64,000 nt of DNA from Candidatus Faecousia faecigallinarum (GTDB taxonomy: Bacteria > Bacillota > Clostridia > Oscillospirales > Oscillospiraceae), in contig DVHJ01000027.1 in the NCBI GenBank assembly GCA_018712145.1, forward strand, positions 1 through 64,000, given 5' to 3'. The notes beneath the pieces were generated by a model. It saw only the letters and a program-made list of their open reading frames with translations, ran no database searches and was not told where the DNA came from. Of the stretch, positions 16,008 through 60,405 are shown one piece after another (the first letter of the stretch is position 1; every line of letters starts with the position of its first letter). Position numbers and translations under genes: made by a program.

Positions 16008-17552
16008 TTAAGGTTCTGTTGGTTCTGTGGTTTCTGTTGGCGGTTCCGTTGATCCTGTCCAATCCGTCCATGCGTCCGCCAGCTGGCGGCTGTTGGCCGT
16101 GTGGAATACGTTGTCCAGTCCAGGCAAAAGGCCGGAAACGCTGCCCCGGGTGGTATACACCGCATAGGTCCGGAATAGCAGCGGGCACAGTTGGCCGTCT
16201 TCCATCACGGCGGAAAACAGGTCGTAGTAATTGCCGCTGTTTTCCAAGGCCTTCAGGCACAGCTGATAGAGTTCGCCATCCGCCATACCACCATAGCCCA
16301 GGGCGCCATCTTCCTGGAAAAAGACAGATAGGTCAAAGGTTGGCGACAGCCGCACCTCTGCCAGGTAGAAATCAAAGTTGCCCACCGCCAGGGCTTGAAG
16401 ATAATCCTCCTGGCTCTCCGGCGCATTCACCGTCACGGTTAAGCCACAATCGGTGAGCTGCTGGGCAATGGTCTGGGCCACGGTCACCCGGAGGGGATTG
16501 CTGCCGTCCGCCAGCAGGGTGGCCTGGGTATTCCGCAGGCCCGCCTGAGACAGGGCTGCGGTAAAAGCGGCGGCGTCATAGCCATACTGGGCCGCCAGGG
16601 CGCTGTCATAGCAAGCCGCCTCCGGGGAAGCTGGTAAGTAGGCCTCCTGAGCAAAACCATGGTAAATTTCCGCCAAGGCCCGCCGGTTCACCCCATGAGT
16701 CAGGGCAGCCCGGACGGTTCCGTTGGCAAAGGGGCTACTACCGGAAGCGTTGCAGCCCAGGTAAAGCAGTATTCCGGTGGGACAGTCCCACAGCTCATAG
16801 TCGCACCGGTAGGCCACATAGTCCGCAGCGCCGGGATCGGCACAGACCAGATCCGTTTTACCGAATTCAAACTGATCCCGCAGGGCGCCGGAAGTGTCCG
16901 CCTGGGACAGGACAATGCTGCTCACCGTCACTGCCGGGGTATAGTCGCTCCACCAATTCTGCCGCCGGGTCAGGCTGCTGCCGGACAAGGCGTATGGCCC
17001 GGTGCCCAGGGGTTCATTTGCGGCGACGTCGGCAGCCCGGACAATGGGAATATCCAACAGTACCGGCAGATTGCCGTAGGCGGTGTCCAGGGTGATGCGC
17101 ACCGTGCGGCTGTCCTGGGCCGTCAAACCAGTGACATGGCTCAGCCGGCCGCCGTACACAGGGCTGTCCATGGCCACCTGCAAGCTGGCCACCACATCCT
17201 GGGCCGTGAGAGCAGAACCGTCGGAAAAGGTGGCCTCCGCCAGGATAAAGGTATAGGTTTTTCCATCCGGGGCGCTGGAATACTGCTGGCACAGCACCGG
17301 CTCGGCCTGGTATTGGGCCGTCACGGTGAACAGGCCCTGGTACAATAGGGCCATTACCGGCCGGTTAATCAGGGCAGTACAAGTGTAGGGATTAAACCCG
17401 GCCTCCATCCGGCAGGACAGGCCAAAACTGGCCTGGGCCGGAACCGTGGCGGTCTCCTCCGATATCTCTCCCGGTTGGGTAGTCTCCACCGGGGTCTGGG
17501 CACATCCGGCCAGCATGGCCAGCGCCAGGACAAGCAAGACCAAGCGCTTCAT
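16008..17552 (-). CDS. ABC transporter substrate-binding lipoprotein (SBP_bac_5-like)
   Basis: MKRLVLLVLALAMLAGCAQT lipobox; GKTYTFILAEATFSDGSALTAQDVVASLQ; NGTVRAALTHGVNRRAL. Confidence 0.85.
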   Translation of the reverse strand: MKRLVLLVLALAMLAGCAQTPVETTQPGEISEETATVPAQASFGLSCRMEAGFNPYTCTALINRPVMALLYQGLFTVTAQYQAEPVLCQQYSSAPDGKTYTFILAEATFSDGSALTAQDVVASLQVAMDSPVYGGRLSHVTGLTAQDSRTVRITLDTAYGNLPVLLDIPIVRAADVAANEPLGTGPYALSGSSLTRRQNWWSDYTPAVTVSSIVLSQADTSGALRDQFEFGKTDLVCADPGAADYVAYRCDYELWDCPTGILLYLGCNASGSSPFANGTVRAALTHGVNRRALAEIYHGFAQEAYLPASPEAACYDSALAAQYGYDAAAFTAALSQAGLRNTQATLLADGSNPLRVTVAQTIAQQLTDCGLTVTVNAPESQEDYLQALAVGNFDFYLAEVRLSPTFDLSVFFQEDGALGYGGMADGELYQLCLKALENSGNYYDLFSAVMEDGQLCPLLFRTYAVYTTRGSVSGLLPGLDNVFHTANSRQLADAWTDWTGSTEPPTETTEPTEP

Positions 17553-18355
17553 GGCCGGTCTCCTTCCGGCAGCCAGATTACCGCCGCCAAAGAACCCCGG
17601 TGGTCGCCTACCACCCGGTGGGACCAGAAGCGGCGATTTTGACAGGCGGTGCAGTCCGGACAAATCTCCAGGGTGACTACCCCTGCTCTGCGCAGCCAAA
17701 TTTCATTTAGCTGTTTGAGGTTCACATGATACTTTGGACCATTCCCGGCGATGGCCGGCAGGGCTTCCTCCCCCAAGGCCTTGACCATGGCCGCCGGTAC
17801 ATCCTCCCCGGTCTCAAAGCAGCAGGGGCCGATGCAGGGACCGATTGCCGCCTGAATATCTTCCGGACGGGTGCCGAAGGCGGAAGTCATGGCCTCCACC
17901 GCCTTGGCCGCAATTCCCCCGGCAGTTCCCCGCCAGCCGGCGTGTACCGCCCCCACTGCCCGGTGCACCGGATCGTGGAGCAGCACCGGCGTACAGTCTG
18001 CGGAAAACACCGTAAGCACCACCCCAGGCTCGTTGGTAATCAGGCCGTCCCGCTCCCCGGGCACCGGGGCAAACAACCCTTGGCCCCGGTCGGCCCGGCC
18101 CACCCGGGCCACGATGGCCGAATGGGTCTGCCGGGTGAACACGGTATCCGCCGGAGAAAAGCCCAGGGCTGACCCCAGAATTTCATAATTCCGCAGGACA
18201 TTTTCCGGAGAATCTCCCCGGTTTGTGCCCAAATTCAAACTTTCCAGGTAGCCGGTACTGCATCCGCCCCGGCGGGTGGTAAAAGCGTGGGGCACAGTCA
18301 GGACCTGGCTGCCCAGGTACTCCAAACTGCCCTGGGTTTTGGTGTAAAACGGCAC
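17549..18355 (-). CDS. Laccase-domain (YlmD/YfiH, PF02578-type) protein; GTG start
   Basis: VPHAFTTRRGGCSTG; FSADCTPVLLHDPVHRAVGAVHAGWRGTAGGI; AIGPCIGPCCFE; AGGAG upstream of GTG. Confidence 0.9.
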   Translation of the reverse strand: MPFYTKTQGSLEYLGSQVLTVPHAFTTRRGGCSTGYLESLNLGTNRGDSPENVLRNYEILGSALGFSPADTVFTRQTHSAIVARVGRADRGQGLFAPVPGERDGLITNEPGVVLTVFSADCTPVLLHDPVHRAVGAVHAGWRGTAGGIAAKAVEAMTSAFGTRPEDIQAAIGPCIGPCCFETGEDVPAAMVKALGEEALPAIAGNGPKYHVNLKQLNEIWLRRAGVVTLEICPDCTACQNRRFWSHRVVGDHRGSLAAVIWLPEGDRP

Positions 18356-30503: not shown

Positions 30504-30791
30504 TTAACCCCGGAAACCGCCCATCAGCAGGTAGCCCAGCAGGCAGATCAGCAATAAAGCCAGCAGGCACACCGGTAGAATGGTCAGCAGCCCGGCCAGC
30601 ATCATGGCCTTCAGGTCGCCTTTCTCCAGCGTAAGATGTTCATCCTTTTCTACCAGATCCTCAATGGGAGGTAAGTCCTCTGGTTTCTCGGGCTGGTTGG
30701 GATCCACTTCCGGTGCCTCTTGTGCGCCCTTCCGCCGCTCCCTGGCCCATTTCATCGCCCGGTCAATCTTACGCTGTAACAGCAAGCTCAA
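30504..30791 (-). CDS. Small single-TM protein at end of opp operon
   Basis: 95 aa; overlaps oppF stop; charged N-terminus and LLTILPVCLLALLLICLLGYLL. Confidence 0.65.
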   Translation of the reverse strand: MSLLLQRKIDRAMKWARERRKGAQEAPEVDPNQPEKPEDLPPIEDLVEKDEHLTLEKGDLKAMMLAGLLTILPVCLLALLLICLLGYLLMGGFRG

Positions 30792-32324
30792 CCCTCCTTA
30801 GGGGAATTCTCCAATGCGTGGTGGCAAGCCACAAAGTGATTGGGACGCAGCTCCTGCAGCTCCGGCACCACCTGCTTGCAAATTTCCGTGCAATACTTGC
30901 AACGGGTGTGGAATTTGCAACCTTTGGGGGGATTCACCGGGCTGGGAATATCGCCCTCCAGAATCTCGGGATTCCGGCTGGCGTCTTCGTCCGTGGTGGG
31001 GATGGCGTTCAGCAAGGCCTCGGTGTAAGGATGCAGCGGATGGGCGAAAATGTCATCCGCCGGTGCCAGCTCCACCATATTGCCCAGGTACATTACGCCG
31101 ATCCGGTCAGAAATGTACTTAACCACCGACAGGTCGTGGGTGATAAACATATAGGTGAGGTTCTGCTTCTCCTTCAACTCCAGCAGCAGGTTAATGATCT
31201 GAGCCTGGATGGAAACGTCCAGGGCGGAAACCGCTTCGTCGCAGACCACAAACTTGGGCCGCAGAGCCAGGGCCCGGGCAATGCCAATTCTCTGCCGCTG
31301 GCCGCCGGAGAACTGGTGGGGATAACGATGGAGGAAATAGCCGGCCAAGCCGCACTCGTCCATGACCCGGATAACCTCTTCCTGCATCCGCTCGTTGTTG
31401 GTGCGGTAGAACTTATGGGCGATCATGCCCTCGCCAATGATCTGGCCCACCGTCATTCTGGGATTCAGGGAGGAATATGGGTCCTGGAAAATCAGCTGCA
31501 GGTCGCTGCGCAGGTGACGCATTTCATTGTAATTGAGCCGGGCCAGGTCGATGCCGTTGCTGTGGTATGCCTCATAGGTGGCATAGTCGGGATGGCCCTC
31601 ATAGTTTGCCCGCATTTTTGCAATTCGTGCATGAACCTCGTCAATTCGCTTGTTGATTTCTGCAATTTCTGCATCGCAGGCCTTCAGCTTCTCCTGGGCT
31701 TTGGACAGGGCTGCGTCATTGGCTTTTTTCCCATTTTCCTTGGCCTTATTCACTTTAAAGGCAATCTCATCCACATCCAGCTGCAGATCCGCCCGCTTTT
31801 CCATGGCGTCCCGCAGCTCCCGGGAGATCTTATACTCTTCCAGGTAAATGTCGGCCACCGGCTGGATGTCCTCCGCCACCACCAGGCCGCCCACCAGGGT
31901 AGCCAGGTCCAGCATGGCGTCGTTGGCCTCTTTCCGCAGGCGGGTCATCTCCCCGTGGCGGGCATATTGCTCCTTCTCCGGGAGGGCCTCGTACTCCTTC
32001 ATGAACTCCTCGAATTTCTTCCGGGAAGCGAGCATATGCTCTTTCCGCTTCGCCATGTGGCGGAAGGTATCGTAGGCGTACTGGGGCGCAATCTCGTCAA
32101 TGCTCCGGCCGAAATACATGGTGCGGCCGTCGGTCTGCTTGTACAGCTGAAGCAGGGAGCGGCCCAGGGTGGACTTGCCGCAGCCGGACTCGCCCACCAG
32201 GCCAAAGGTTTCGCCCTCATAGATGTCGATGGTAATGCCGTCGTTGGCTTTTACGGCCAGGCCTCTTTTTCCCACCGGAAAATACTGCTTCAAATTGGTA
32301 ATTTGCAACAGCACCTTGCGATCT

Positions 32325-32335
<11 letters not shown>
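30788..32335 (-). CDS. oppF: Oligopeptide ABC transporter ATPase (OppF type) with coiled-coil insertion
   Basis: GLVGESGCGKSTLGRSLL; LIFQDPYSSLNPRMTV; FSGGQRQRIGIARALAL; ~180-aa charged insertion before the Q-loop. Confidence 0.9.
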
Positions 32336-33314
<979 letters not shown>

Positions 33315-33328: not shown

Positions 33329-35281
33329 TTACTTATCCCGGTCCGACTTGGGGTCCATCACGTCCCGGATGGTATCGCCAATGAGGTTGATGGAAATGGT
33401 ACAGACGGCCAGCAACAGCGCCGGGAAGAACCATTGCCACCAGAAGTTACGAATTACCGTTGAGTTATTGGCGCCGTTGAGCATGTTGCCCCAGGTGGGT
33501 CTGGGGTACTGCACGCCGAAGCCTAAGTAGGACAGAGAGGACTCCGTCAGCATGCAGGTGGCGAAGTTCAGGGACAGGTCCACCAGGATCACGGAAAACA
33601 CGTTGGGCAAAATGTGCTTAAATGCAATCCGGCTCTCCCGAACGCCCATGGCCTTGGCCGCCGTGACGAACTCCTTCTCCCGCTCGGCCAGAATCTGAGC
33701 GCGGATCAGCTTCGCCAGGCTGGTCCAGGACAGTGCGCCCAAAATCAGCATGATGATGAAAATCTTGGTGTTTTCCGTCAGCGGCGAGCGCTGCAGCACG
33801 CAGGAAAGAATCAGCGCAAAGGGCAGGAAGGGGATGGAGCCAAAAACTTCCGTCACCCGCATCAGCAGCAGGTCCACCTTGCCGCCGGCATAGCCGGAAA
33901 TACAGCCCACAATGATGGCGATGATGGAGGAAACGATAACCGCCACCGCGCCGACCGTCATGGTCATTTTCCCGCCGTGGACGCACCGGGCAAACACATC
34001 CGCCCCGTGGCCGTCGGTGCCAAAGAGATAGCCGCTCAGGCCCCATTTGGCCTGGATGCTGCTGTCCTCCTTCAGCATGTAGTTCTGGAAAGAGGTGACA
34101 ATCAGCTTGTCGCCGTTCTTGGCGCTGCCGGGGATATTCAGCTGCTTTAAGTGGTTGGAGCCCCAGCCATAGACATTGCCCTTATTGGTCAGGCCGGTGT
34201 AATGGTTGGTGCCGCCGCCAATTTGGATGAAATACTCATCCGCCGCCAGGGCGGGCAGGTTCTTTTCCCCGTAGTTAAAGGAGCCGGTAAAAATCACTTC
34301 CCGGGCGGCGGCCCGCTCGGTGTCATTGGTGGCCGCAGCATCGGCTTCCGGATCCACCAGCATCAGGCAAGCCGTACCGGAGGTGGCAGCGATGGCCTCC
34401 ACCTTCCGCTGGCCCACATACCGGGCAAGGCTGAGGTTGGGATCGCCGTTCACGGTATCATAAAGACCCTTCAGGTTACCGGCGGTAAACTTCCCCTCCG
34501 TGGTCACGGCCAACAGATAAGCGTTGGTGTAGGAAACGTCGGCAATATTGTCCAGGGCCATAATTGCCCGCATGTTCAGGCAGGTGTTGGAGTTGCCAAA
34601 CACCTTTGCCGTGCCGTCCTTGAACAAAATGGCCGTAGACTGGTAGCCGCACTTGACATCCTTCACATTGTCAATGTCCACCTTCGCATCCGGCAGGATT
34701 TCCGCCACCGGCGCGTCGCGGTCGGTATAAGCAGAGCCAGGATATTGGCCCAGCTTATTGTCGCCCCAGCCGTAAACATTGCCCTGATCGTCAATGGCGA
34801 TGCAGTGGTCATAGCCGGCGGCGGCAAACAGGATATTAGCATCCTGCACAGCCTGGGGAATATCCGCCACGTCGATACCGGTGGTGCCGAGACTGGTGTT
34901 GCCCCACACGTACACGTCGCCGGAATTGGACAGGCCCAAGGAGAAGCTGGCGTAGCTGCTGATGGTTTTCACATCATTGGCCAATGCCTTAGGCACGTTG
35001 AGCATATCAAAGCCGGGCGCGACATTTTGCTGCCGGGTTTCCGTGTAATTCAAGTCCAGGGGCACAAAAAGCGGTCCGATAAAGGCCAGGGCAAACATGA
35101 AAATCATCACAAAGACGCAGAACATAGCCAGTTTTCGGGACTTAAAATCCCGGAGAATCTGCCGGCCGGGGCTGACAATCTCCTCCACCGCCATGGCGTC
35201 CACTTCCTTGGCCGGGCCCATCACGCCCCGCTTCCCCCAGCGGAAGAGTGTAGAGAAAACACCGGATTTTTTCTGTTTCAT
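33329..35281 (-). CDS. oppC: Oligopeptide ABC transporter permease (OppC type) with RCC1-like insertion
   Basis: OppC N-terminus/TM1, then repeats GDVYVWGNTSLG, GNVYGWGDNKLGQYPG, GNVYGWGSNHLKQLN, then GTDGHGADVFARCVHGGKMTM and BPD_transp_1-like domain. Confidence 0.88.
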   Translation of the reverse strand: MKQKKSGVFSTLFRWGKRGVMGPAKEVDAMAVEEIVSPGRQILRDFKSRKLAMFCVFVMIFMFALAFIGPLFVPLDLNYTETRQQNVAPGFDMLNVPKALANDVKTISSYASFSLGLSNSGDVYVWGNTSLGTTGIDVADIPQAVQDANILFAAAGYDHCIAIDDQGNVYGWGDNKLGQYPGSAYTDRDAPVAEILPDAKVDIDNVKDVKCGYQSTAILFKDGTAKVFGNSNTCLNMRAIMALDNIADVSYTNAYLLAVTTEGKFTAGNLKGLYDTVNGDPNLSLARYVGQRKVEAIAATSGTACLMLVDPEADAAATNDTERAAAREVIFTGSFNYGEKNLPALAADEYFIQIGGGTNHYTGLTNKGNVYGWGSNHLKQLNIPGSAKNGDKLIVTSFQNYMLKEDSSIQAKWGLSGYLFGTDGHGADVFARCVHGGKMTMTVGAVAVIVSSIIAIIVGCISGYAGGKVDLLLMRVTEVFGSIPFLPFALILSCVLQRSPLTENTKIFIIMLILGALSWTSLAKLIRAQILAEREKEFVTAAKAMGVRESRIAFKHILPNVFSVILVDLSLNFATCMLTESSLSYLGFGVQYPRPTWGNMLNGANNSTVIRNFWWQWFFPALLLAVCTISINLIGDTIRDVMDPKSDRDK

Positions 35282-35293: not shown

Positions 35294-36337
35294 TTACGCG
35301 TTGACGCGGATTCTGGGGTCAACCAGGCCATAGATAATATCCGTCACCAGGTTGCCCAACAGGCTGATGAGCACATAGAACATCTGCAATGCCAGCACCA
35401 CTTCAAAGTCGCTTTTATTCAGGCTGTCTATGTACAGGCGGCCCACGCCATTCAAGCCAAAAATATTTTCAATCATGATGGAACCGGAGAAAATACTCAG
35501 GAACCAACCAATCACCAGGGTAACAATGGGAATCAATGCGTTCCGGAAGGCATGGGAGTAGATAACCGTCTTTTCCCGCACGCCCTTGGCCCGGGCCGTC
35601 CGGATGCAGTCCAGGGACAGAGCCTCAATCATGGAGGCCCGGACGTACCGGGTCAGGCCGCCCAGGGAGCAGAAGGTCATGACAATGAGCGGCAGGGCCA
35701 GGTGATACATTTTATCCCAGAAGGCGTCCACGGGGTTGTCAAAAATCTTACCGATGGAGGACATGCCGCCGGCCGGGAACCAACCCAAAAGCGACACGAA
35801 TATCCAGATAAACAAAATCGCGATAATAAACACCGGTAAGCTGTATCCAATTACGGTAAACACCTGCACGCCTGTATCCAATTTTGATCCCTTTTTCACG
35901 GCGCAGACAATGCCCAGGGGGATACAAATGGCCAGGCCCGCGATGGTGGCAAAGATATTGATGAACACCGTGTTCCCCATGGGGGGCATGACTACATCCA
36001 CCACATCCTTGTTCTGGACATAGGAGCGGCCAAGATACCCAGTCAACAAGCCGCGCAGTTCGGGCTCATCCCATTCATTTACGGGAGAGAAGGGATACAC
36101 GCCCATCCAACGCAGATAGCGGATAAAGAGGTTGCCATCCGTACCATACTGCCGTTGATACTTAGCGTACAACTCATCATAGTCCAAGTTGGCCTGCCGG
36201 TTATTCTGAATCTCTGCCCGGGCTTGGGCAGCGGCCCGGTCTGTGGGGATCATGTTGTACACCATATACATGAGGAAGCTCAGGATCAGAACCACCAGAA
36301 GCATATAGCCAAGACGTTTTAAGACATATTTTACCAT
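35294..36337 (-). CDS. oppB: Oligopeptide ABC transporter permease (OppB type)
   Basis: MVKYVLKRLGYMLLVVLILSFLMYMVYNMIPTD; ARAKGVREKTVIYSHAFRNALIPIVT. Confidence 0.92.
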   Translation of the reverse strand: MVKYVLKRLGYMLLVVLILSFLMYMVYNMIPTDRAAAQARAEIQNNRQANLDYDELYAKYQRQYGTDGNLFIRYLRWMGVYPFSPVNEWDEPELRGLLTGYLGRSYVQNKDVVDVVMPPMGNTVFINIFATIAGLAICIPLGIVCAVKKGSKLDTGVQVFTVIGYSLPVFIIAILFIWIFVSLLGWFPAGGMSSIGKIFDNPVDAFWDKMYHLALPLIVMTFCSLGGLTRYVRASMIEALSLDCIRTARAKGVREKTVIYSHAFRNALIPIVTLVIGWFLSIFSGSIMIENIFGLNGVGRLYIDSLNKSDFEVVLALQMFYVLISLLGNLVTDIIYGLVDPRIRVNA

Positions 36338-36397
36338 AGCGCCAAGCCTCCGTTGTCTTTCTTCTTTGTTTCGCACCGCCGGTTCCGGCCGGCGGAT

Positions 36398-36550: not shown

Positions 36551-38794
36551 TTACGCGTCCAGCCAGTAGAAATCAGCCGCATCCTTCATGTAGGCGACGG
36601 AATAAGCGTCGTACATACTGGGATCAATGGTCCAGTTCCAGGAGTAGTCAAAGATCGCAGAGGTGTAGCCGGTGGCGAAGTTAAAGGCCGAGTACATGGG
36701 AGGACCCTGATAGCCGGCGCCAGGATTCTGATCCAGCTCAGCAGTCATCGCTTCAAAGGGGCCTGCAGTCCACTGCACTTCCATGCCGATGTTGGCAGTG
36801 ATTTCGCTGCCGGACCAAGCGGTCTTCAGCTGCTCGGAGAATTCATTATCCTCGGTGCTGAACCAGTTGATCACCAGGGGCATGTAGTACTCGCCGTTCA
36901 CTTCCACGGTCTTGTAGGCGCCGTTCTGGCTGGTATAGTTCAGGTTGGCGTCACTCAGGTCGGCAGCGGACAGCTTCTTGTAGCGCACACCCTCGGTGTA
37001 CTCGCCGCCCTCGGCATTGTAGACCCAGCCGCCCTCTTCCAGGGCAGCGATGGCGGAAGCCTCAGACACAGCATACTGATCCAACAGGATGGTGTCGGCA
37101 TTGGCCACGTAAGCAGCGGAACCGGTGTAGTAGGGGCCATTCACCACAGTGCCGTAGCCGCCGGTGAATTCCTGGGCAAAGGCGTTCCGGTCGATGGAGT
37201 AAGCAACGGCCTCACGCACTTCTCTGAAGCTCAGAGGGCCAAAGTCATTGCGGAAGTGCAGCTTGCCGTAGCCGGCCCGGTCGTAGTAAGTAGAAGAGAA
37301 CTGATCCGGGTTCTCCTCCACCAGCTTCAGAGCCTCAGCCGTGGCGGCGCCGCCGGTGATGTCCTGGAGCAGGTCGATTCTGCCGGTGGTCAGCCATTCG
37401 TTCTGGGTTTCGTCAACAACCTTCACGTAGGAAACCACTTCCACGGAAGGCTTCTTGCCCTCATAGTTGCCCTTGAAGTAGGGGTTGAGGGTCAGGGTGG
37501 CCGTCAGCTCAGAGTCATTGTAGCTGTCCACCACGTAGGGGCCGGCAAAGGGATAGGAGATATCATCCCGGGAAGCCACGATATGGGCCGCCATGGTGTA
37601 GCTGTCGCCGTCCTTCGCGTAGAACTCATCGCTCAGGTAGCAGCCCTCGCCGTCGTCCAGAATGTCGCAGTCGCCCAGCCACAAAGGCAGATAATCCGGG
37701 CCAAAGGAAGCATAGGCAATGTCATAGTAGTAGGGCAGGTAAGCCGCATCCACGGTAACAGAGAAGGTGTAATCGTCAATCAGCCGCAGGCCGGTAAAGA
37801 CCTTGTTGCCCACGCCGTCATCCGGGCCGGTGTAAGCGGCGAAATCTGCATAGCCCACGAAGTTCATACCGCCGCGGTGGTCGTTTTGCGCAGCCTCTGC
37901 CGCCACGGGGGTGGAGAAGACCATGGTCCAGGCCAGGTAGTTCTTGGCGGTGATGGGGGAACCGTCGCTGAACTGCATATCCTCGTAGATCTTAATGGTG
38001 AAGGTCTCGGAGCCGTCCTCGTTATTGGTGACCTCGTAGTTCTCCACCACGGTGGGGTTCCACGCATAGGTGCCTTCCTTGGTGGCAACCGTCGTCGACA
38101 GCATCAGGCCGCCGGTCATGTTGGTGATGTCCAGGTCGGAAGCAATCGGATTGGTCTTGCCAAAATTAGCATACCGGAAGCAGCCGGACAAGTCGGTGGC
38201 GTTGCCCATGACCACAGAGTTCTCACCCTTGCTGGTGTCAATGGTCACCTCAACGATAGCCTGAGAGGCGCCCCAGTAGGGGTTCACTTCGTAGTTCTGG
38301 ATCTTGCTGTTGTACACATGGTAGTACTGGTTGGAGTACAGAGGCAGCTCCGGCAGCATGTAGTTCCATCTCTGGATGTACAGCTTCCACCACTCGTTGT
38401 AGATCTTCTCGGCAGTGTCGAAGTCCTCATTGCCTTCGATAGGAGTGGTGTTGTACACCATAGCCATGGACAGGAAATCCATACCCAGCTCGTATTGCTC
38501 GCCATCCATAGTGATGTAAGCCAGGCCGTCGTACTCCTCAACCATGTCGATGGTCACATCATCGCCGAACTGCTCGTACAGAGAGATATAGTCAGTGCCG
38601 TACTCGTAGTCCTCGATGGCGCCCCGCTCCGGCTCAGTCTCCACCGGATCCGTGGCATCCTCAGTGCCGTCCGTTCCCTCGGTAGTATCAGAGGTGCCGG
38701 AGGGCTCGGTGCTGTCGTTGCCGCTCTCGTTACAGCCGCTCATCAGCGCGGCAACCATAACGATGACCAACAACAGGGCCAACAGTTTTTTCAT
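36551..38794 (-). CDS. oppA: Oligopeptide-binding lipoprotein (OppA type)
   Basis: MKKLLALLLVIVMVAALMSGCNES lipobox; FTIKIYEDMQFSDGSPITAKNYLAW; FREVREAVAYSIDRNAFA. Confidence 0.9.
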   Translation of the reverse strand: MKKLLALLLVIVMVAALMSGCNESGNDSTEPSGTSDTTEGTDGTEDATDPVETEPERGAIEDYEYGTDYISLYEQFGDDVTIDMVEEYDGLAYITMDGEQYELGMDFLSMAMVYNTTPIEGNEDFDTAEKIYNEWWKLYIQRWNYMLPELPLYSNQYYHVYNSKIQNYEVNPYWGASQAIVEVTIDTSKGENSVVMGNATDLSGCFRYANFGKTNPIASDLDITNMTGGLMLSTTVATKEGTYAWNPTVVENYEVTNNEDGSETFTIKIYEDMQFSDGSPITAKNYLAWTMVFSTPVAAEAAQNDHRGGMNFVGYADFAAYTGPDDGVGNKVFTGLRLIDDYTFSVTVDAAYLPYYYDIAYASFGPDYLPLWLGDCDILDDGEGCYLSDEFYAKDGDSYTMAAHIVASRDDISYPFAGPYVVDSYNDSELTATLTLNPYFKGNYEGKKPSVEVVSYVKVVDETQNEWLTTGRIDLLQDITGGAATAEALKLVEENPDQFSSTYYDRAGYGKLHFRNDFGPLSFREVREAVAYSIDRNAFAQEFTGGYGTVVNGPYYTGSAAYVANADTILLDQYAVSEASAIAALEEGGWVYNAEGGEYTEGVRYKKLSAADLSDANLNYTSQNGAYKTVEVNGEYYMPLVINWFSTEDNEFSEQLKTAWSGSEITANIGMEVQWTAGPFEAMTAELDQNPGAGYQGPPMYSAFNFATGYTSAIFDYSWNWTIDPSMYDAYSVAYMKDAADFYWLDA

Positions 38795-50224: not shown

Positions 50225-51121
50225 TTACTTTTTGGTCCGGTCAGCAAAAAACTCCCGGGTTTGCACAGCATTGGCCCGGATTTCCCCTTGTAAAGCCTCC
50301 AAGGTGGGGAACTTCCGCTCTGGCCGGAGATAATGCCACAATTCCAGGGTCACCTCCTGGCCGTATAGGTCGCCGTGATAATCCAGAAGCCACGGCTCCA
50401 CCGTGAGTGTGCTGCCGCCTACGGTGGGCCGGACGCCGATATTGGTCACAGCCATGTATACGCCGGTGGCCGTGCGTACCCGGCAGGCGTATACGCCCCG
50501 GGGGGGCAGTAGCAGCTCTGGATCTGGCACCAGATTGGCGGTGGGAATGCCCATTGTCCGGCCCAGATGTTGACCCTGCACCACTTTGCCAGACAGCAAA
50601 TGGGGATGGCCCAAAAACCGCCTGGCCCGGTCCAGATCTCCCTCGGCCAAGAGTTGACGAATGTACGTGGAGGAAACGGGAATGCCGTCCAAGCGGTACT
50701 CCGGTGCAACAGCGCAGCTCAAGCCCATCCGGGCCGCCATTTCCTGTAGCCGTGCGGCCGTCCCCTGGCCGCCGGCGCCAAATCGGAAATCGTGGCCGCA
50801 AATCAGTCCCACCGCGTGGTACCGGTTCACCAAAATATCCTGCAGAAAATCCGTCCAGGCCATATCCCGCATGGCCTCATCAAACTGCAGGGTAAGCACT
50901 TCCTCCACCCCATACAGCTGCGACATCAGCTTTTTCCGGTCCGGCAAGCTGCTCAACAGCCGCACCGGCGTGCCCAACACCAGGGTGTCCGGGTGCCGGT
51001 CAAAGGTCAGGGCAGCTGCCTGGCAGCCAAGGCGGTCAGCCTCTTGGCGGCACCGGGACAGCAGCTGCCCGTGGCCCAGGTGTACACCGTCAAAAAAGCC
51101 CAGGGCAATCACTCGTTCCAA
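50225..51121 (-). CDS. ribF: Bifunctional riboflavin kinase/FAD synthetase
   Basis: ALGFFDGVHLGHGQLL; SSTYIRQLLAEGDLDRARRFLGHPHLLSGKVVQGQHLGRTMGIPTANL. Confidence 0.95.
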   Translation of the reverse strand: MERVIALGFFDGVHLGHGQLLSRCRQEADRLGCQAAALTFDRHPDTLVLGTPVRLLSSLPDRKKLMSQLYGVEEVLTLQFDEAMRDMAWTDFLQDILVNRYHAVGLICGHDFRFGAGGQGTAARLQEMAARMGLSCAVAPEYRLDGIPVSSTYIRQLLAEGDLDRARRFLGHPHLLSGKVVQGQHLGRTMGIPTANLVPDPELLLPPRGVYACRVRTATGVYMAVTNIGVRPTVGGSTLTVEPWLLDYHGDLYGQEVTLELWHYLRPERKFPTLEALQGEIRANAVQTREFFADRTKK

Positions 51122-51122
51122 C

Positions 51123-51998
51123 TCAATTCACCTCGAAAAAGCTTTTGATGGTTTTCATCTCTCCGCCGGCGCACCGGGCCAGCGCCAGAAACTCTCCGCC
51201 GCCGTAAAGGCGGTAATCGCCAGAGGGCAGAGCGGTAGAAAATACGCCACCATTGCGGCAGATCCGCTCTTGCTTAGGCGACAGCTCTACCTTTGGACAG
51301 TGGGGAAATAAGGAGTCCACCGGCCGAAGCAGCCGTTCCACCGGATCGCCGGCTTCTGCCATGTCCAGTAGGCACTCCAGCGATATCGCATCGTCAAGGC
51401 TGTAGGCCCCGGCTTGTGTCCGGCGCAGCGCCGCCATGGTTCCACCGCAGCCCAATGCCAGGCCAATGTCTTTGCACAGGGTGCGAATATAGGTTCCCTT
51501 GGAACAGTCCACCAGAAATGTGTAGTCCCTGTCCTGAACTTGTACCAATTCCAACCGGTAAATTTCAATGGGGCGGGGAGCCCGCTCTATGTGCCGGCCC
51601 TGCCGGGCCAAGGTGTAGAGTTTTTTTCCGTCCACCTTTACGGCGGAATACATGGGGGGAACTTGCATCTGCCGGCCCAGAAACCGGCGGAACATTGCCT
51701 CTACGTCTTCCCGGCCCACGGTGACCGGCCGGGTTTCCAGCACCGTTCCGGTGGTGTCCTCCGTATCGGTGAGCAGGCCCAGACGCAGGGTGGCCATGTA
51801 CTGCTTTCTGGCGTTTTCCAAAAACGCTGCCCCCCGGGTAGCCCGGCCCACCATCACCGGCAGTACGCCGGTGGCCATGGGATCCAAGGTGCCGCCGTGA
51901 CCCACCCGGCGGGTGCCGAATACCCGGCGCAGGCGGGCCGCCACATCCTGGCTGGTCCACCCCTGGGGTTTGTCAATGATGATGATACCCGATGCCAT
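51123..51998 (-). CDS. truB: tRNA pseudouridine synthase B
   Basis: GIIIIDKPQGWTSQDVAARLRRVFGTRRVGHGGTLDPMATGVLPV; SKGTYIRTLCKDIG. Confidence 0.96.
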   Translation of the reverse strand: MASGIIIIDKPQGWTSQDVAARLRRVFGTRRVGHGGTLDPMATGVLPVMVGRATRGAAFLENARKQYMATLRLGLLTDTEDTTGTVLETRPVTVGREDVEAMFRRFLGRQMQVPPMYSAVKVDGKKLYTLARQGRHIERAPRPIEIYRLELVQVQDRDYTFLVDCSKGTYIRTLCKDIGLALGCGGTMAALRRTQAGAYSLDDAISLECLLDMAEAGDPVERLLRPVDSLFPHCPKVELSPKQERICRNGGVFSTALPSGDYRLYGGGEFLALARCAGGEMKTIKSFFEVN

Positions 51999-52020
51999 GG
52001 CTGCTGTCCTTTCTGCCGGG

Positions 52021-52980
52021 TTATAAAATGCCCTGCTTTTCCAAAACCGCCAGCACCATTTTCCTGGCCTGGGCTTGGTCGCAGGAAAGGGTAGCGCCTG
52101 CCGCTCCCCGGTGGCCGCCGCCCCCTAAGGCCAGGGCAATGGCCGCCGCGTCGTAGGCCGGCGTGGCGCGAATGGACAGCTTGGTGTCCCCGTTTTCCGT
52201 GGTACGGAAGGTCACGGCCAACTCCACGCCTTCCAAATTCCGGGGGAAGTTGGAGATATCCTCCATATCGTCTTCGGTCACCCCAGCCTCCCGCTCTGCC
52301 AGCAGGGGAATGAGGCACAAGGCAACCTTCCCGTTGCGCAATAGCTCCATGTGTTGGCTGAGGTAGGCGTTCAGCCGCATCCGGGCTGGCCGTACCGTTT
52401 CGAACAGTGCCCGGTTGATGGCGTAGGCATTGGCCCCTGCTTCCAGACAGGCCGCCGCCGCCCGCAGGGTGCGGGCGGTGGTGTTGGCATAGCGGAAACA
52501 GCCGGTATCTGTGGACAGCGCCACATATAGCGCTTCCGCCATGGCCTTATCCAGCCGGACCCCCATGGCCAGCAATACCCGCAAAACAATCTCTCCACAG
52601 GCTGCCGCGCCAGAATCCACAATGCCCCGGTAAGCAAAGCCAAGATTGGAGCCGTGATGATCCAGCAGCAGCTCCACCGGCAGTTTTTCCGCCCCAGGGC
52701 AGAGCATTCCCGGGCTGGCCACGTCCACGCTGACGATAACGCTGTCCTCCGGCGGCGCCGCCACTGTCAGGCCCCGGTGATAGGGCTGGTACCGGGCGGT
52801 GAGCTGAGGATTGCGCAGGATATACGCCTCCTTCCCCAAGCTCCGCAGGCCCCGGCAGAGGGCAGCAGCGCACCCGGCGGTATCCCCATCCGGGCGGCGG
52901 TGGGTTAAAATGAGAAATCCGTCTCTCGCCAGAAAGAAACGGGCGGTCTCCTCAATGGTCAACTTCTGCATTGCCGTCAT
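52021..52980 (-). CDS. DHH/DHHA1 phosphoesterase (NrnA-like)
   Basis: LILTHRRPDGDTAGCAAALCRGL; LLLDHHGSN; ALGGGGHRGAAGATL. Confidence 0.92.
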   Translation of the reverse strand: MTAMQKLTIEETARFFLARDGFLILTHRRPDGDTAGCAAALCRGLRSLGKEAYILRNPQLTARYQPYHRGLTVAAPPEDSVIVSVDVASPGMLCPGAEKLPVELLLDHHGSNLGFAYRGIVDSGAAACGEIVLRVLLAMGVRLDKAMAEALYVALSTDTGCFRYANTTARTLRAAAACLEAGANAYAINRALFETVRPARMRLNAYLSQHMELLRNGKVALCLIPLLAEREAGVTEDDMEDISNFPRNLEGVELAVTFRTTENGDTKLSIRATPAYDAAAIALALGGGGHRGAAGATLSCDQAQARKMVLAVLEKQGIL

Positions 52981-53326
52981 CCTCTGTCGTTTCCAGGCGG
53001 TTTAGCAGCTCAAGCATATGAGCGCCCCGCAAAATGGAGTCATCCTGCTGCCATTGCAGTTCCGGCGTGTGGCGCAGCTGCAGCGCTGCGCCTAAGGCAC
53101 GGCGGAGATAACCGCTGGCCGACTTTAGGCCCTGCATGGCCTCTGCGGCCCGGGGGCTGTCCAGGAAGCTGACATACACCTTGGCATACCGGAGATCGGG
53201 GGTCGTCTCCACCCTGGTGACCGACACCATGGTTGCCTGCACCCGGGGATCTTTTACCCCACGGAGCAGGGCGGCCAGCTCCCGCTGAATTTCTTCGTTG
53301 ATCCGTCCCATTCGATTGGACGCCAT
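52952..53326 (-). CDS. rbfA: Ribosome-binding factor A
   Basis: Start MASNRMGRINEEIQRELAALLRGVKDPRVQATMVSVTRVETTPDLRYAKVYVSFL. Confidence 0.94.
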   Translation of the reverse strand: MASNRMGRINEEIQRELAALLRGVKDPRVQATMVSVTRVETTPDLRYAKVYVSFLDSPRAAEAMQGLKSASGYLRRALGAALQLRHTPELQWQQDDSILRGAHMLELLNRLETTEDDGNAEVDH

Positions 53327-53354
53327 CGCTCCCGCCTCCTTTTGTATAGTTGCT

Positions 53355-55712
53355 TCAGGGCTTAATTTCCTCCATGACAAAGCACTCGAAAACGTCGCCC
53401 TCTTTAATGTCGTTAAATTTCTCGATGGACATGCCACACTCGTAACCGGCAGCCACTTCTTTCACCGAGTCTTTGAACCGCTGCAGGGAGCCAACCGTTC
53501 CCTGGTGCAGAACCACGTTATCCCGCAAAATGCGCACCTGGGCATCTCGGGAAACCCGCCCGTCTTTTACATAGCAGCCAGCTACCGTGCCAACAGCAGA
53601 GACCTTGTAGGTCTGCCGCACTTCCGCGTGGCCAATCACCGTCTCTTTGTATTTGGGGGCCAGCATGCCCTTCAAGGCGGCTTCAATTTCATCAATGGCG
53701 TCGTAGATCACCCGGTACATCCGAACGTCTACCTTGGCCCGGGCGGCGCTGGCCTGGGCGGCGGCGTCCGGCCGGACGTTGAAGCCGATGACGATGGCAT
53801 TGGCCGTAGAGGCCAGCAAAATGTCGGACTCGTTTACCGCGCCGACACCGGCATGAATGACCTTAACCCGGACCTCATCGTTGGACAGCTTCAGCAAGCT
53901 GGCCTTCAGTGCTTCGGCAGAACCCTGCACGTCTGCTTTGACGATCAGGTTCAGTTCCTTCATCTCGCCCTCCTGCATCTTGGCAAAGAGGTTATCCAGG
54001 GTGACCTTGGTATTCAGTTTAGCGGCGGCGTCTTTCTCCGCCTGGCGGCGCTGCTCCACCAGCTCCCGGGCCATGCGCTCATCGGAAACGGCGTTGAATT
54101 CGTCGCCGGGGGCGGGCACATCAGCCAGGCCGGTGATTTCCACCGGGATGGAGGGGCCGGCGGTTTTTACCGTGCGGCCCTTGTCGTCGGTCATCACCCG
54201 GACCCGGCCCACCGCTGTACCGGCAATGATCACATCGCCCTGTTTCAAGGTACCGTTTTGCACCAGCAGGGTAGCAATGGGGCCGCGGCTCCGATCCAGC
54301 CGGGCCTCGATCACGGTGCCCTTGGCCGGGCGGTTGGGGTTGGCCTTCAACTCCTGCACTTCGGCGGTGAGTACCACCATCTCCAGCAGCTCGTCAATGC
54401 CGGTGCCCTGCTTGGCCGAAATGGGGCAGACCACAGTTTCGCCGCCCCACTCCTCCGGGATCAGGTCATACTCGGTGAGCTGCTGCTTGATCCGGTCGGG
54501 ATTGGCGCCAGGCTTATCCATCTTGTTGATGGCCACAATAATGGGAATCTTTGCCGCCTTGGCATGGTTAATGGCTTCTACCGTCTGGGGCATGATGCCG
54601 TCGTCGGCAGCCACCACCAAAATGGCAATGTCGGTACACATGGCGCCCCGGGCCCGCATGGAGGTAAAGGCGGCGTGGCCGGGGGTATCCAGGAAGGTGA
54701 TGAGATTCTCCCCCACCCGCACGGTGTATGCGCCAATGTGCTGGGTAATCCCGCCGGCCTCACCGGAAACCACATTGGTTTTCCGGATGGCGTCCAGCAG
54801 GCTGGTTTTGCCATGGTCTACGTGGCCCATGACCACCACCACCGGGCTGCGGGGCTGCAGCTCCTGGGCGGTGTCCACATGGTCGTCAATGAGCTGCTCT
54901 TCAATGGTGACGGTGACCTCCCGTTCTACCCGGCAGCCCATCTCCGTGGCCACAAACTCTGCGGTGTCAAAGTCAATGTTCTGATTGATGGAGGCCACTA
55001 CCCCATTTTTCAGCAGGGTTTTGATGACCTCCGCCGCCGTCTTCTTCATCCGGCTGGCCAGTTCGCCTACCGTGATCTCATCCGGGATTTTTACCGTCAG
55101 GGGCGTTTTCTTAATCACTTCCAGGCGCAGGCGGCGCATTTTCTCCTGCTCTTCGCTTTTGGCTTTGCTGCTCTGGAACTTGCCGCCCTTTTTGTTGCTC
55201 TTGGACTTCCCACCGCCGATTTTCTGCTTGCCGCCGGAGAAGTTCTGCACCCGCTCGGATACCAGGGTATCCACCCGGTCGTCAAACCGCTCGGCATTCA
55301 CCCGGACGGCGGAGGTATCCACCACCCGGCGCTCCCGGCGGCGCTCCGGCTGCTTGGCAGCGGGGGCGCCTTCTGCCGGCTTGGTTTCGGCAGGCTTCCC
55401 CTCGTTGGGTTTGGCCTCGGGCTTGCCGGGCTTATCCTGCCGGGGGGCAGGCTTCTGGGGCCGGGCGGTCTTGCCGGCGTCCCGGGCCGGTTCCGCCTTG
55501 GTCTTTTGGGCGGCGGCAAACACCTGCTCCAGGGAAGCAATCTGGTTGTTCTGGGTAACATGGTCAAAAAATGCGTTCAGCTGCTCGTCGGTGAGCACCT
55601 GGCTGTAACTTCTGGGCCGTTCCGAATACTTGCCCACAATATCGGCCACTTCTTTGGGGGCCATACCTAGATCCGCCGCAACTTCGCGGACGCGATACTT
55701 GATCAAACTCAT
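53355..55712 (-). CDS. infB: Translation initiation factor IF-2
   Basis: [42 protein letters not shown]. Confidence 0.98.
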
Positions 55713-56185
55713 GATTTCGCACCTCCATCATTCGTCTTACGCTGCCTGGTTTGTCCGGATTTGGCGGACTGTTTGCCGCCCCGGCGCAGGTTCTGCCGGT
55801 GAGCCCGGGCTTCTTTCTGCCGCTGGCGCAGCCGGGCAGCCTGGTTTTCCATTTCTGTCATGGCGCTGCCGTATTGAGCGGGATCCTCCAGGGCTTGTAA
55901 AAATGCCAGTGCCAAGGCCGCGTCGGTAAAGGCCGCCATGGCCACCACCGTCCTGCCCAGGGCGGAGCCTAGTTCCGCTTTCGTCAAGGGAACGGTAACC
56001 AGAATCTGGCCGGTGCCGGCCACAAAGGCAGCAGCCCGCCGGCGGGTGTTGTCCGGCGCGTCGCCGGCCAAGATCACCAGCCGGGCCTTCCCGGCCCGGG
56101 CGGCGGCGCCCACCGGTTCCTCTCCAGCTTCCAGCCGCCCAGCCTTCTTGGCCAGGCTGAGATACTGGGCTGCATTAGGTTTCAT
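55709..56185 (-). CDS. L7Ae/L30e-family protein (YlxQ-like) with basic C-terminal extension
   Basis: [42 protein letters not shown]; synteny nusA-ylxR-ylxQ-infB. Confidence 0.85.
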
Positions 56186-56447
56186 GGCCCGCCTCCATTT
56201 CCCGGCTCAGCCGCTCCAGCACCTCCGGTGGGATGGGAACCTCTAAATTCCGCTCCAACGCCTTGGAGCGCACGGCTTTTTTCAGGCATTCCGGGTTGGG
56301 GCATACATAGGCCCCCCGGCCTGGCGCTTTGCCCCGGAAGTCCAGGCTCACTGTCCCTTCCGGTGAGCGCACCACTCGAAGCATCTCCCGCTTCGGTTTG
56401 CGCTCCCGGCAGCCCATGCACTGGCGCATGGGAATTCTTTTTTCCAC
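56175..56447 (-). CDS. YlxR/RnpM-family protein
   Basis: PMRQCMGCRERKPKREMLRVVRSPEGTVSLDFRGKAPGRGAYVCPNPECLKKA. Confidence 0.93.
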   Translation of the reverse strand: MEKRIPMRQCMGCRERKPKREMLRVVRSPEGTVSLDFRGKAPGRGAYVCPNPECLKKAVRSKALERNLEVPIPPEVLERLSREMEAGHET

Positions 56448-56491
56448 GGCGGTCCCCCCCTGTCATATACATTTTTATAATATATTTTGCC

Positions 56492-57628
56492 TCACTGGGC
56501 AGCTTCTTCCTCCGGACTGTCTTCCACTGCCTTTGAGGCAGGTTTGATGTCGATTTTATAACTGGTCAGCCGGGCGGCCAAGCGGGCGTTCTGCCCCTCC
56601 TTGCCAATGGCCAGGCTTAGCTGATTGTCGGGCACGATCACCCGGCAGGCTTTTTGGCCAGGGAGCAATTCCACGGAAATCACGTCTGCCGGGCTGAGGG
56701 CTGCCGCCACATACTGGCAGGGATCCTCAGACCAGACGATAATGTCCATTTTTTCGCCCTTCAGCTCCTCCACAATGGCACCCACCCGGCCGCCCCGGGG
56801 GCCTACGCAGGTGCCCACCGGGTCAAGATCCGGCTGCACCGCCCGAACGGCGATCTTTGTCCGGGAGCCGGCCTCCCGGGCAATGTTCCGCACTTCGATC
56901 AATCCCTCGGCAATCTCCGGCACCTCCAGCTCAAACAGCCGGCGCACCAAGTTGGGATGGGTGCGGGATACGCAGACCTGGGGGCCCCGATTGGCCCGGC
57001 GCACGTCCACCACGTACACCCGGAGCATCTGTCCCTCCTGGTAGGTTTCCCCGGGGATTTGCTCCCCGGCCCGGAGAATGGCCTCGGACTGCTCGCTGCC
57101 CACGCCCACTTGGACATATACATCCCGGGACACCGGGTCAATCCGCAGCACGGTGGCAGTAAGCAGCTCCTGAGCCTTAGAGGAGTAGCTATCGTATACT
57201 GCGCCACGCTCTGCTTCCCGGATACCCTGGATGATCACCTGTTTGGCGGTTTGGGCGGCAATCCGGCCGAAGGCCTCCACCTTCACCGGAATACTCAGCA
57301 CTTGTCCCACCTGAGCGCCGGCGTCCACACTCCGGGCAGCGTCCAGGGCAATTTCAGCGGCGGGATTTTCCACTTCCTCCACCACGGTTTTCTGCTGTAC
57401 CATGGACATTTTATTTTCGGTCAGTTCCACCACCACGGTTTCCGCCGGGGTTTCCTTATGATCTTCCCGGTCTTTGCGGTAGGCGTTGACCAACGCCTGC
57501 TTAATCCGCTCCACCATGTAGTCTACGGGGATACCCCGTTCTGCCTCCAGCGCTTTCAGCGCGGAGAAAATCACATCCGGCTGGCAGAGCTGAACCTCCT
57601 GTGCCGGCTTTTTCCGATTTCTGGCCAT
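56492..57628 (-). CDS. nusA: Transcription termination/antitermination factor NusA
   Basis: VCVSRTHPNLVRRLFELEVPEIAEGLIEVRNIAREAGSRTKIAVRAVQPDLDPVGTCVGPRGGRVGAIVEEL. Confidence 0.97.
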   Translation of the reverse strand: MARNRKKPAQEVQLCQPDVIFSALKALEAERGIPVDYMVERIKQALVNAYRKDREDHKETPAETVVVELTENKMSMVQQKTVVEEVENPAAEIALDAARSVDAGAQVGQVLSIPVKVEAFGRIAAQTAKQVIIQGIREAERGAVYDSYSSKAQELLTATVLRIDPVSRDVYVQVGVGSEQSEAILRAGEQIPGETYQEGQMLRVYVVDVRRANRGPQVCVSRTHPNLVRRLFELEVPEIAEGLIEVRNIAREAGSRTKIAVRAVQPDLDPVGTCVGPRGGRVGAIVEELKGEKMDIIVWSEDPCQYVAAALSPADVISVELLPGQKACRVIVPDNQLSLAIGKEGQNARLAARLTSYKIDIKPASKAVEDSPEEEAAQ

Positions 57629-57643
57629 GATTTCTCCCTCCTG

Positions 57644-58096
57644 TCAGAATTCTACCCGGAGGCGCACCAGGGCGATCTCCGATTTTGTAAAGGTAATGGG
57701 CCCGGCGGCAGTATCCAGAGTGACGTCTCCGCCGGTATAGCCTGCCAGAATGCCGGGAAACTCTTTTGCCCCGTTTTTGGGCCGGTACAGTTTCACCAGC
57801 ACCGGGCTGCCCATGAACCGCTGGAAATCCTGGGGACGCTTCAGCGCCCGTTCCAGGCCGGCGGAGCACACCTCAAAATGGTAGCTGTCGGGGATGGGGT
57901 CCCGCTCGTCCAGGATAGGGTCCATGGCACGGGATAGCGCTTCGCAGTCGGCGATGTCCACGCCGCCTTCCTTATCAATGTAAATGCGCAGGAACCAGTC
58001 GGCTCCCTCCCGCACATATTCCACGTCCCACAGCTCCAGGCCCAGACGGTCTGCCAGGGGTTTAGCCAGGGATTCCACCAGCTCGGTGATTTTCAC
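57644..58096 (-). CDS. rimP: Ribosome maturation factor RimP (GTG start preferred)
   Basis: VKITELVESLAKPLADRLGLELWDVEYVREGADWFLRIYIDKEGGVDIADCEALSRAMDPILDE. Confidence 0.93.
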   Translation of the reverse strand: MKITELVESLAKPLADRLGLELWDVEYVREGADWFLRIYIDKEGGVDIADCEALSRAMDPILDERDPIPDSYHFEVCSAGLERALKRPQDFQRFMGSPVLVKLYRPKNGAKEFPGILAGYTGGDVTLDTAAGPITFTKSEIALVRLRVEF

Positions 58097-58120
58097 TGCA
58101 CACACGCCTTTCTCAAGCAA

Positions 58121-58148
58121 GAAAGAGAGGGGCGAACCCCTCTCTTTC
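58121..58148 (-). other. Leader stem-loop of rimP-nusA-infB transcript
   Basis: gaaagagagggg-cgaa-cccctctctttc between promoter and rimP start. Confidence 0.7.
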
Positions 58149-58172
58149 GTAAGTCTACGTTAGATTAACGGT

Positions 58173-58201
58173 ATTATACCACTGCTGCAGCAATATTGCA
58201 A
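58173..58201 (-). promoter_or_regulatory. Sigma-A-type promoter of the rimP-nusA-infB operon
   Basis: Minus strand TTGCAA-N17-TATAAT. Confidence 0.75.
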
Positions 58202-58271
58202 GGGCTTTATCCAATATTTTTCCGGAATTTCCAGAAAAAATATCCGGTTCTTCCCCGATACTGCAAAAATT

Positions 58272-59144
58272 TTACCGTCCGCCGCCGCTGAGGAAGAACA
58301 GAGCCAGCATCCCCGGGCCGGTATGGGCGCCGGTGAGGGGCTCGTGCATGGAGATAATCAATTCCTTAGGTTTGGCGATGGCTTCCACCATTTGGGCCAG
58401 AGTTTGGGCATCGGCCAAACAATCCCCGTGGGAAATATACACCCGCTGGGTTTCCGGCGCGGCAGCCCGCTTCCGGTACAGCTCGGCAAAAACCTCCATG
58501 GCCCGTTTCCGTCCCCGCACCTTATTGCACACCGTAATATGGCCATGCTCATCTCCACGCAAGATGGGCTTTAGATGGAGCATGGTGCCCAAGGTGGCTG
58601 CCACGCCGGATACCCGGCCGGTGCGCCGCAGGAACATCAGGTCATCCACGGTGAAGTATTCGCATAAATTCTCCCGGTCCTTTTCCAGCGCTTGGCAGGT
58701 GGCGGTCAGATCGAGACCGGCAGCCCGGTAATCCGCCGCCCGGCCGATGAGCAGACCGGTACCCAGGCCGGCCCCCAGGGAGTCGAACACCCGCACGGTG
58801 CGCTGGGGAAACTCCTCGGCCAGCAATTGGGCCGCCTGGAGGGCGGAACTCACCGTACCGCTGATGCCGGAGGACAGGGTGATATACAAAATATCCTCCC
58901 CCGCCGCCAAGGTGGGGCGGAAAGCCTCCATAATCTGGCCCGCCGGCAGGAGGGAAGTCTTGACCACACCCTTATTCCGCAGGTAATCATAGTAGGCCTT
59001 CCCGTCGAAAGCTTCCGGATATTTGGGGCAGGGGACCAGTTTGCCCTCCATCTCAATGGAAAACGATATGGTCTGCACCTGGAACTGCTCCAGCTGTGCC
59101 CGGGGGAGATTGCAGGCAGAGTCGCCAAAAATCACAAAGCCCAT
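58272..59144 (-). CDS. DegV-family protein
   Basis: VIFGDSACNLPRAQLEQ; LYITLSSGISGTVSSALQAAQLL; HLKPILRGDEHGHI. Confidence 0.92.
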   Translation of the reverse strand: MGFVIFGDSACNLPRAQLEQFQVQTISFSIEMEGKLVPCPKYPEAFDGKAYYDYLRNKGVVKTSLLPAGQIMEAFRPTLAAGEDILYITLSSGISGTVSSALQAAQLLAEEFPQRTVRVFDSLGAGLGTGLLIGRAADYRAAGLDLTATCQALEKDRENLCEYFTVDDLMFLRRTGRVSGVAATLGTMLHLKPILRGDEHGHITVCNKVRGRKRAMEVFAELYRKRAAAPETQRVYISHGDCLADAQTLAQMVEAIAKPKELIISMHEPLTGAHTGPGMLALFFLSGGGR

Positions 59145-59289
59145 GGGTTGAACGCGCCTCCCTATCTAGTATTGCATATTAGTATAGCTGATTTCCGTGA
59201 ATATGTAAAGGCGTATTTTCTGTTTTTTCTTGCGACAGAGGGAAGATCGTGGTATAATTTTTCCACATTTTTTCGCGGGGGTGGCGGGC

Positions 59290-59862: not shown

Positions 59863-60204
59863 GGGAGGCCCCTTGCCGGGCAGCCGGTGCGGCAATGCCC
59901 CACGCAAAAATAGATTCCGGTGGAACTGAGGCAAAATTTGGGATTTTGCCTCAGTTTCTTTTTTGTGGCATTATCCAGTCATGTCATTGTGCAAAACGCC
60001 AAATTTTATGAGTAAAAAAACGCCGAAAAACCAGGATAAAGCGGTACCTTGCTCTGCCCGGTTTGTCCGCCCGGCGAAAAGGTGGAAAATTTCCCGGAAA
60101 TTTACCAGGAAAGCACCGCCAACCAGTTGAAAAAATGCACAGCAGTGTTGAGCAAAATGCACAAAGCTCAATCAAAAACAAGCAGGACATCCGACAAATT
60201 TGCC

Positions 60205-60234
60205 TTGACAGCGTAGTTAAATATATGTTAAACT
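60205..60234 (+). promoter_or_regulatory. Predicted promoter upstream of small ORF and secreted-protein gene
   Basis: TTGACA-N18-TAAACT. Confidence 0.5.
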
Positions 60235-60309
60235 AACGACATACCGGAGGCAGCGATGGGAATTTGTCAGACGGAACCCAGATTGATTGCATCGAAGGAG
60301 GCCAGTGGT

Positions 60310-60405
60310 ATGTCATATCCATTGCGAAACCAAGCACCAATGTACAGCCGGACCCCCGGACATACCGGGCTTCCGGCCACAAAAAGAGGACGTTGTTATC
60401 TGTAA
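60310..60405 (+). CDS. Small ORF, 31 aa (49 aa if the ATG at 60256 is used)
   Basis: AAGGAGG 8 nt upstream of ATG; MSYPLRNQAPMYSRTPGHTGLPATKRGRCYL. Confidence 0.35.
   Translation: MSYPLRNQAPMYSRTPGHTGLPATKRGRCYL

Follow-up and report, generated by a model that had tools for sequence, protein, structure and literature searches.

A predicted seven-bladed RCC1-like propeller in the OppC-type permease of a clostridial peptide importer family

The window analysed here, a stretch of 64,000 nucleotides, carries an opp operon whose OppC-type permease contains an insert predicted to form a seven-bladed RCC1/BLIP-II-like propeller. The binding protein of the same operon, OppA, is circularly permuted. 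The fused permease belongs to a family conserved across loci and is thus not a one-off, a point that the preliminary description of this DNA had missed, together with the permutation of OppA and the unrelated inserts that other clostridial OppCs have in the same loop.

The gene, termed oppC-RCC1, starts with ATG and encodes an ABC permease subunit of 650 residues (33329..35281; this and all other features listed below lie on the minus strand). Pfam identified OppC_N at residues 37-89 (1.9e-10, 40.9 bits for a cut-off of 23.9) and the permease domain BPD_transp_1 at residues 455-645 (33347..33919; 2.6e-31, 109.2 bits for a cut-off of 26.4). As first described, the RCC1 repeats fell between the N-terminal transmembrane segment and the transport domain, and the four repeat strings quoted at that stage were all found verbatim in the frame. 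The proposed HMM search for RCC1-type families gave scores above the Pfam cut-offs for both RCC1_2 (four stretches, 3.2e-25, 87.6 against 22 bits) and RCC1 (two stretches, 1.1e-8, 36 against 21.7 bits). When solved structures were searched, residues 416-646 matched E. coli OppC (8z21_B, E=5e-47) and the insert matched UVR8, HERC2, RCC1 and BLIP-II. Since E. coli OppC has 302 residues, nearly all the extra length of oppC-RCC1 corresponds to the RCC1 insert. The best curated NCBIfam family, Opp4C, remained below its equivalog cut-off (287.7 against 350 bits), so that the protein is not named as this equivalog; domains and fold assign it more broadly as an OppC-type permease of a type I peptide importer, with the peptide substrate deduced from the family only.

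An AlphaFold2 model was built from an alignment of 79 rows, made up of natural homologues of full or nearly full length (mean pLDDT 88, pTM 0.81). It showed six transmembrane helices with the OppC/DppC fold, E. coli OppC being the top Foldseek match of the permease domain (8z21_B, TMt 0.70 over 227 columns), and the core recovered E. coli and M. tuberculosis OppC/DppC with E about 1e-15. Between TM1 of OppC_N (residues 50-72, 35066..35134; hydropathy 46-79) and the propeller lies a conserved linker some 30 residues long (residues 73-100, 34982..35065), in which P89 and P97 are invariant in the alignment. The propeller itself, modelled mostly at pLDDT 90-98, covers residues 101-415 (about 315 residues, 34037..34981), so that the initial estimate of some 320 residues at 34040-35010 was accurate. 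Seven three-strand units were visible from residue 104 to residue 414, and Foldseek aligned the propeller with BLIP-II (TM 0.75-0.76 by target length) and also recovered UVR8. These results agree with the RCC1-like beta-propeller originally proposed. The full-length RCC1-like model WD40_RLD scored under its Pfam cut-off (96.1 against 150 bits), blades 4 and 5 being degenerate.

With blade boundaries drawn by us, blade 1 comprises residues 101-148 (34838..34981; strands 104-109, 113-118 and 123-127), blade 2 residues 149-204 (34670..34837; strands 150-155, 159-164 and 168-173) and blade 3 residues 205-244 (34550..34669; strands 206-211, 215-220 and 225-229). Blade 4, degenerate in sequence, spans residues 245-291 (34409..34549; strands 246-251, 256-260 and 280-284), and blade 5, in which a loop at 312-327 shows weak conservation, residues 292-349 (34235..34408; strands 293-299, 303-309 and 327-333). 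They are followed by blade 6 (residues 350-390, 34112..34234; strands 351-356, 360-365 and 370-374) and by blade 7 (residues 391-415, 34037..34111; strands 392-395, 399-403 and 409-414), which runs into the GTD motif (residues 421-423, 34013..34021) that begins the OppC core and was placed by alignment to residues 80 onward of 8z21_B. The last propeller strand ends at residue 414, GTD follows seven residues later, and TM2 starts at residue 429 in the model, indicating tight coupling between the C-terminal side of the propeller and the membrane domain. The WGLKGYLFGTD junction between blade 7 and GTD is conserved among the fusions.

The GTDB collection (84,980 genomes) was searched specifically for the fusion junction, which provided the count of carriers that had been suggested: 317 candidate stretches matched and 80 loci were kept, all of them from Clostridia and mostly from gut and rumen MAGs, with isolates too (Acetatifactor muris DSM 23669, Butyrivibrio sp. 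MC2021, AE2015, AE3009 and Su6, and B. proteoclasticus). Among 60 relatives checked, full-length fusions were detected in several genomes of the same genus and in one of another family. The junction model gave strong matches in about 16 of 391 genomes sampled evenly over the class and in about 14 of 399 sampled over the phylum. Although the draft assembly of the window genome consists of 97 contigs, the fusion recurs in many genomes assembled independently and also in isolates. This recurrence rules out, to near certainty, an assembly chimera or a misannotated frame and, together with the Pfam E-values, shows that the architecture is not due to chance. In a tree of OppC proteins the 86 fused cores sampled grouped on one branch, the sole apparent exception (L109) being a fusion truncated where its contig ends. 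Support at the base of this branch was low; a single origin of the fusion is therefore likely, though unproved.

All loci with contigs long enough to cover the operon had the order oppA-oppB-oppC(RCC1)-oppD-oppF. In the window, Pfam identified oppB (35294..36376), with a putative TM1-TM2 scoop region at approximately residues 35-140 by analogy with DppB, and the ATPase genes oppD (32325..33314; ABC_tran and oligo_HPY) and oppF (30788..32335; 515 residues). The gap between Walker A and the Q-loop is 226 residues in OppF versus 46 in OppD, which reveals a charged insert of approximately 190 residues. This insert (31523-32095, inside oppF) is highly charged and coiled-coil-like; 67 OppFs of related loci had gaps of 149-245 residues, and those of L058, L099 and L104 had no insert. 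Both ATPases also carry a C-terminal cysteine cluster, CKFxxRCKYCTxxC (residues 287-300 of OppD and 473-486 of OppF), resembling the [4Fe-4S] site of E. coli DppD and DppF (PMC12136057). Near secA, at 16008-17699, a second SBP_bac_5 lipoprotein is encoded that has no neighbouring permease genes and may, as an orphan binding protein, depend on the RCC1-Opp translocator.

In the solved DppABCDF complex, the stretches between TM1 and TM2 of both DppB and DppC lie in the periplasm, and the coupling helix, found between TM4 and TM5, lies in the cytoplasm; the scoop motif, located in the TM1-TM2 region of DppB, enters the DppA cleft and contacts DppA (PMC12136057). As the propeller is inserted between TM1 and TM2 of OppC in our model, it would by homology be extracytoplasmic, on the OppA side, as had been proposed for this loop. 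The acidic character of the loop (25 K+R versus 40 D+E) and the basic N-tail (11 versus 5) agree with an outside location. The preliminary description had further suggested that the propeller may lie beside the OppA docking face. Its position on the OppA side is supported by homology and coupling to OppA is favoured by the rate covariation reported below, whereas the contact itself is inferred. The roles of built-in receptor, substrate selector or cell-wall docking module raised in that description are still conjectures.

The oppA gene (36551..38794) encodes a lipoprotein of 747 residues, identified as a circularly permuted binding protein with Pfam and with phmmer and blastp matches in swapped order. 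SBP_bac_5 scored 86.1 bits for a cut-off of 32.4, spanning only positions 12-288 of the 368 in the profile. A segment of about 80 residues that is C-terminal in canonical relatives is here N-terminal: residues 102-181 (38252..38491) matched residues 638-707 of the canonical OppA of locus L067, which is another RCC1-Opp operon (blastp, 49%, 7e-22), and residues 502-558 of PDB 9p48_A, while the main body, residues 191-741 (36572..38224), matched residues 51-614 of the former (46%). In direct comparison with 9p48_A, residues 127-183 aligned with its C-terminus (502-558) and residues 409-558 with 167-307. Body and C-terminal segment are thus both homologous to those of cluster C SBP_bac_5 proteins such as 9p48, but in the window OppA the latter precedes the body. 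The AlphaFold2 model of the permuted protein (pLDDT 87.5, pTM 0.84, the moved segment mostly above 88) predicts that it folds well despite the permutation. Foldseek aligns in sequence order, so that its OppA scores (TM about 0.4-0.6) are no test of permutation, and sequence comparison was used instead.

Among the OppAs compared, 61 were permuted, including that of the window, and 13 were canonical (L061, L066, L067, L071, L077, L080, L081, L085, L086, L094, L097, L100 and L107); both copies occurred together in none, and three were too incomplete to be classed. Permuted and canonical proteins aligned in swapped order in 422 of 480 pairs, and a colinear C-terminal match was obtained in 0 of 480. 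A junction model of the permuted form, which matches the window OppA as a single piece, found the junction in one piece in 3 of the 391 sampled genomes, and in each of the three the contig region in question also carries RCC1-OppC. Other RCC1-OppC genomes of this sample had the canonical OppA order; the permuted form was thus found beside RCC1-OppC only. In a tree of the homologous segments the permuted forms grouped together with the canonical ones basal, support for the permuted group being only 60. This is consistent with a single permutation event after the RCC1-Opp family arose. No natural circularly permuted binding protein was reported in the titles and abstracts returned by our search of the open-access literature.

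Since the propeller is placed at the site to which OppA has to dock, we tested for co-evolution of the two. A first mirror-tree correlation (r=0.88) was set aside, its alignment having mixed non-homologous OppA ends; owing to the two segment orders, the OppA alignment for the rate tests was restricted to homologous segments. The partial correlation of pairwise distances between OppA and propeller was then 0.74 for all loci, 0.71 for permuted ones only, and 0.40 without a clade of ten loci (L059, L070, L074, L075, L082, L087, L098, L103, L105 and L108). These loci have an OppB and an OppC core that evolve much faster than OppA and propeller, whose rates are ordinary, and much of the raw mirror-tree signal was driven by this one clade. 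OppA nevertheless remained the strongest link of the propeller without the fast clade. The corresponding values were 0.12-0.33 for propeller and OppC core, -0.07 to 0.22 for propeller and OppB, 0.90 for OppB and OppC core, and -0.16 for OppA and core. Recombination of the propeller with OppA as a cassette was discarded, as few strong tree conflicts were seen and rate differences explain the pattern instead.

With the topology fixed, the covariation of branch rates was 0.33 for OppA and propeller (p=1e-3, a value that treats branches as independent, which they are not fully), 0.40 for OppA and OppB scoop (rho 0.51), 0.58 for OppB core and OppC core, and -0.05 for OppA and OppC core. Covariation of the propeller with its own core (0.36) is unsurprising within one chain, and that with OppD was weak (0.22). 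The method recovered OppA-scoop and OppB core-OppC core, two contacts known from homologues, and placed the propeller with OppA. Given the incomplete independence of branches, this covariation constitutes moderate evidence, from which we infer that the propeller contacts OppA.

These observations suggest that the propeller may be a rigid outer platform that binds or orients OppA over the OppB/OppC entrance, the reading that we favour and judge to have an even chance of being correct. In this arrangement the OppB scoop motif would lie on one side and the propeller on the other, that of OppC, much as the P2 loop of MalF is placed for MalE; the propeller would raise the local occupancy of OppA, and could guide or seal the hand-over of peptide from OppA into the entrance. 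Alternatively, the propeller could be an independent domain that captures ligands at the cell surface, such as peptides, glycoconjugates or fragments of peptidoglycan, and feeds or tethers the importer with no need for contact with OppA. Propellers often serve as binding scaffolds, and BLIP-II, which has the closest structure among bacterial proteins, binds its partner tightly. Tree lengths of 21.6 and 19.2 show that the propeller evolves at about the rate of OppA, which would suit a module for recognition at the surface. However, most conserved positions of the propeller are structural residues generic to RCC1 repeats, and the homologue alignment showed neither an obvious binding face nor a conserved patch of non-structural residues. 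As the rate covariation also points to OppA, we regard independent ligand binding as unlikely, though it deserves serious consideration.

The propeller could also sense or recruit another membrane partner, such as a peptidase or a sensor kinase, making the importer a signalling receptor as well. In Gram-positive bacteria, signalling peptides are among the substrates of Opp systems (PMC10569065), and oppC-RCC1 is the one clear OppC-type permease found in the window genome; the operon, however, contains only Opp genes, with a TetR-type regulator downstream in the window, and such a role seems improbable. That the insert is mostly a structural spacer or shield with little specific function, lodged in an insertion-tolerant loop that unrelated inserts occupy in other clostridial OppCs, seems improbable too, for all 86 of the fused proteins sampled by their cores retain the propeller, with no loss seen within the clade, and its linker and junction are strongly conserved.

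If the propeller is a platform for OppA, the two unusual features of the operon might reflect a two-step co-adaptation that can still be seen today, in which the docking platform appeared first on OppC and circular permutation of OppA then moved its lipid anchor, giving rise to a distinct importer subclass. We propose this tentatively. Relocation of the anchor would change the way in which OppA is presented to the transporter.

The core of oppC-RCC1 is 31-38% identical to E. coli OppC/DppC and to the corresponding subunits of M. tuberculosis OppABCD/DppABCD (PDB 8z21, 8z1v, 8j5q and 8wd9), with which it shares the OppC_N TM1, the GTD motif, the coupling-helix region and the operon partners. 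By contrast, these proteins have 287-302 residues, a short TM1-TM2 loop and no propeller, as the preliminary description had stated for OppC in general, and their binding proteins are unpermuted. Seven-bladed RCC1-type propellers are known in BLIP-II (1jtd, 3qi0), UVR8, RPGR and HERC2, but there they are free-standing or part of unrelated proteins, and the identity of our insert to BLIP-II is about 19%. The DppB scoop likewise occupies the periplasmic TM1-TM2 region of a peptide importer permease, yet it comprises about 30 residues in the B subunit, as opposed to about 315 in the C subunit (E. coli DppABCDF, PMC12136057). In the maltose importer MalFGK2E, the P2 region of MalF is a large extracytoplasmic domain between permease TM helices that contacts MalE (PMC3150292). 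Position and proposed role are analogous to those of the propeller, but the permease family is another one and there is no homology. MalF P2 is not known to be a propeller.

The search of the open-access literature returned no description of a fusion of RCC1 repeats with a permease. The combination therefore appears undescribed, the components and the class of mechanism being known, and database architecture lists may already display it without comment. Type I peptide importers are treated as a fixed parts list, from which a propeller on the permease across hundreds of gut and rumen bacteria departs; its carriers are organisms important for gut protein use. The coexistence of canonical and permuted OppA within one family also offers a natural experiment on binding-protein docking and substrate hand-over.

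Other clostridial OppCs contained inserts in the same TM1-TM2 loop, of approximately 200 residues common to L111-L121, about 210 residues in L012 and about 375 residues in L014, in which a Pfam search found no confident domain. Such differing inserts suggest that this loop is a hot spot for extracytoplasmic insertions. RCC1-like matches were also noticed on contig C4 of genome G107 (around 50657-61510), in a single open frame reported as 29,380 residues (about 88 kb), possibly a giant RCC1-repeat protein.
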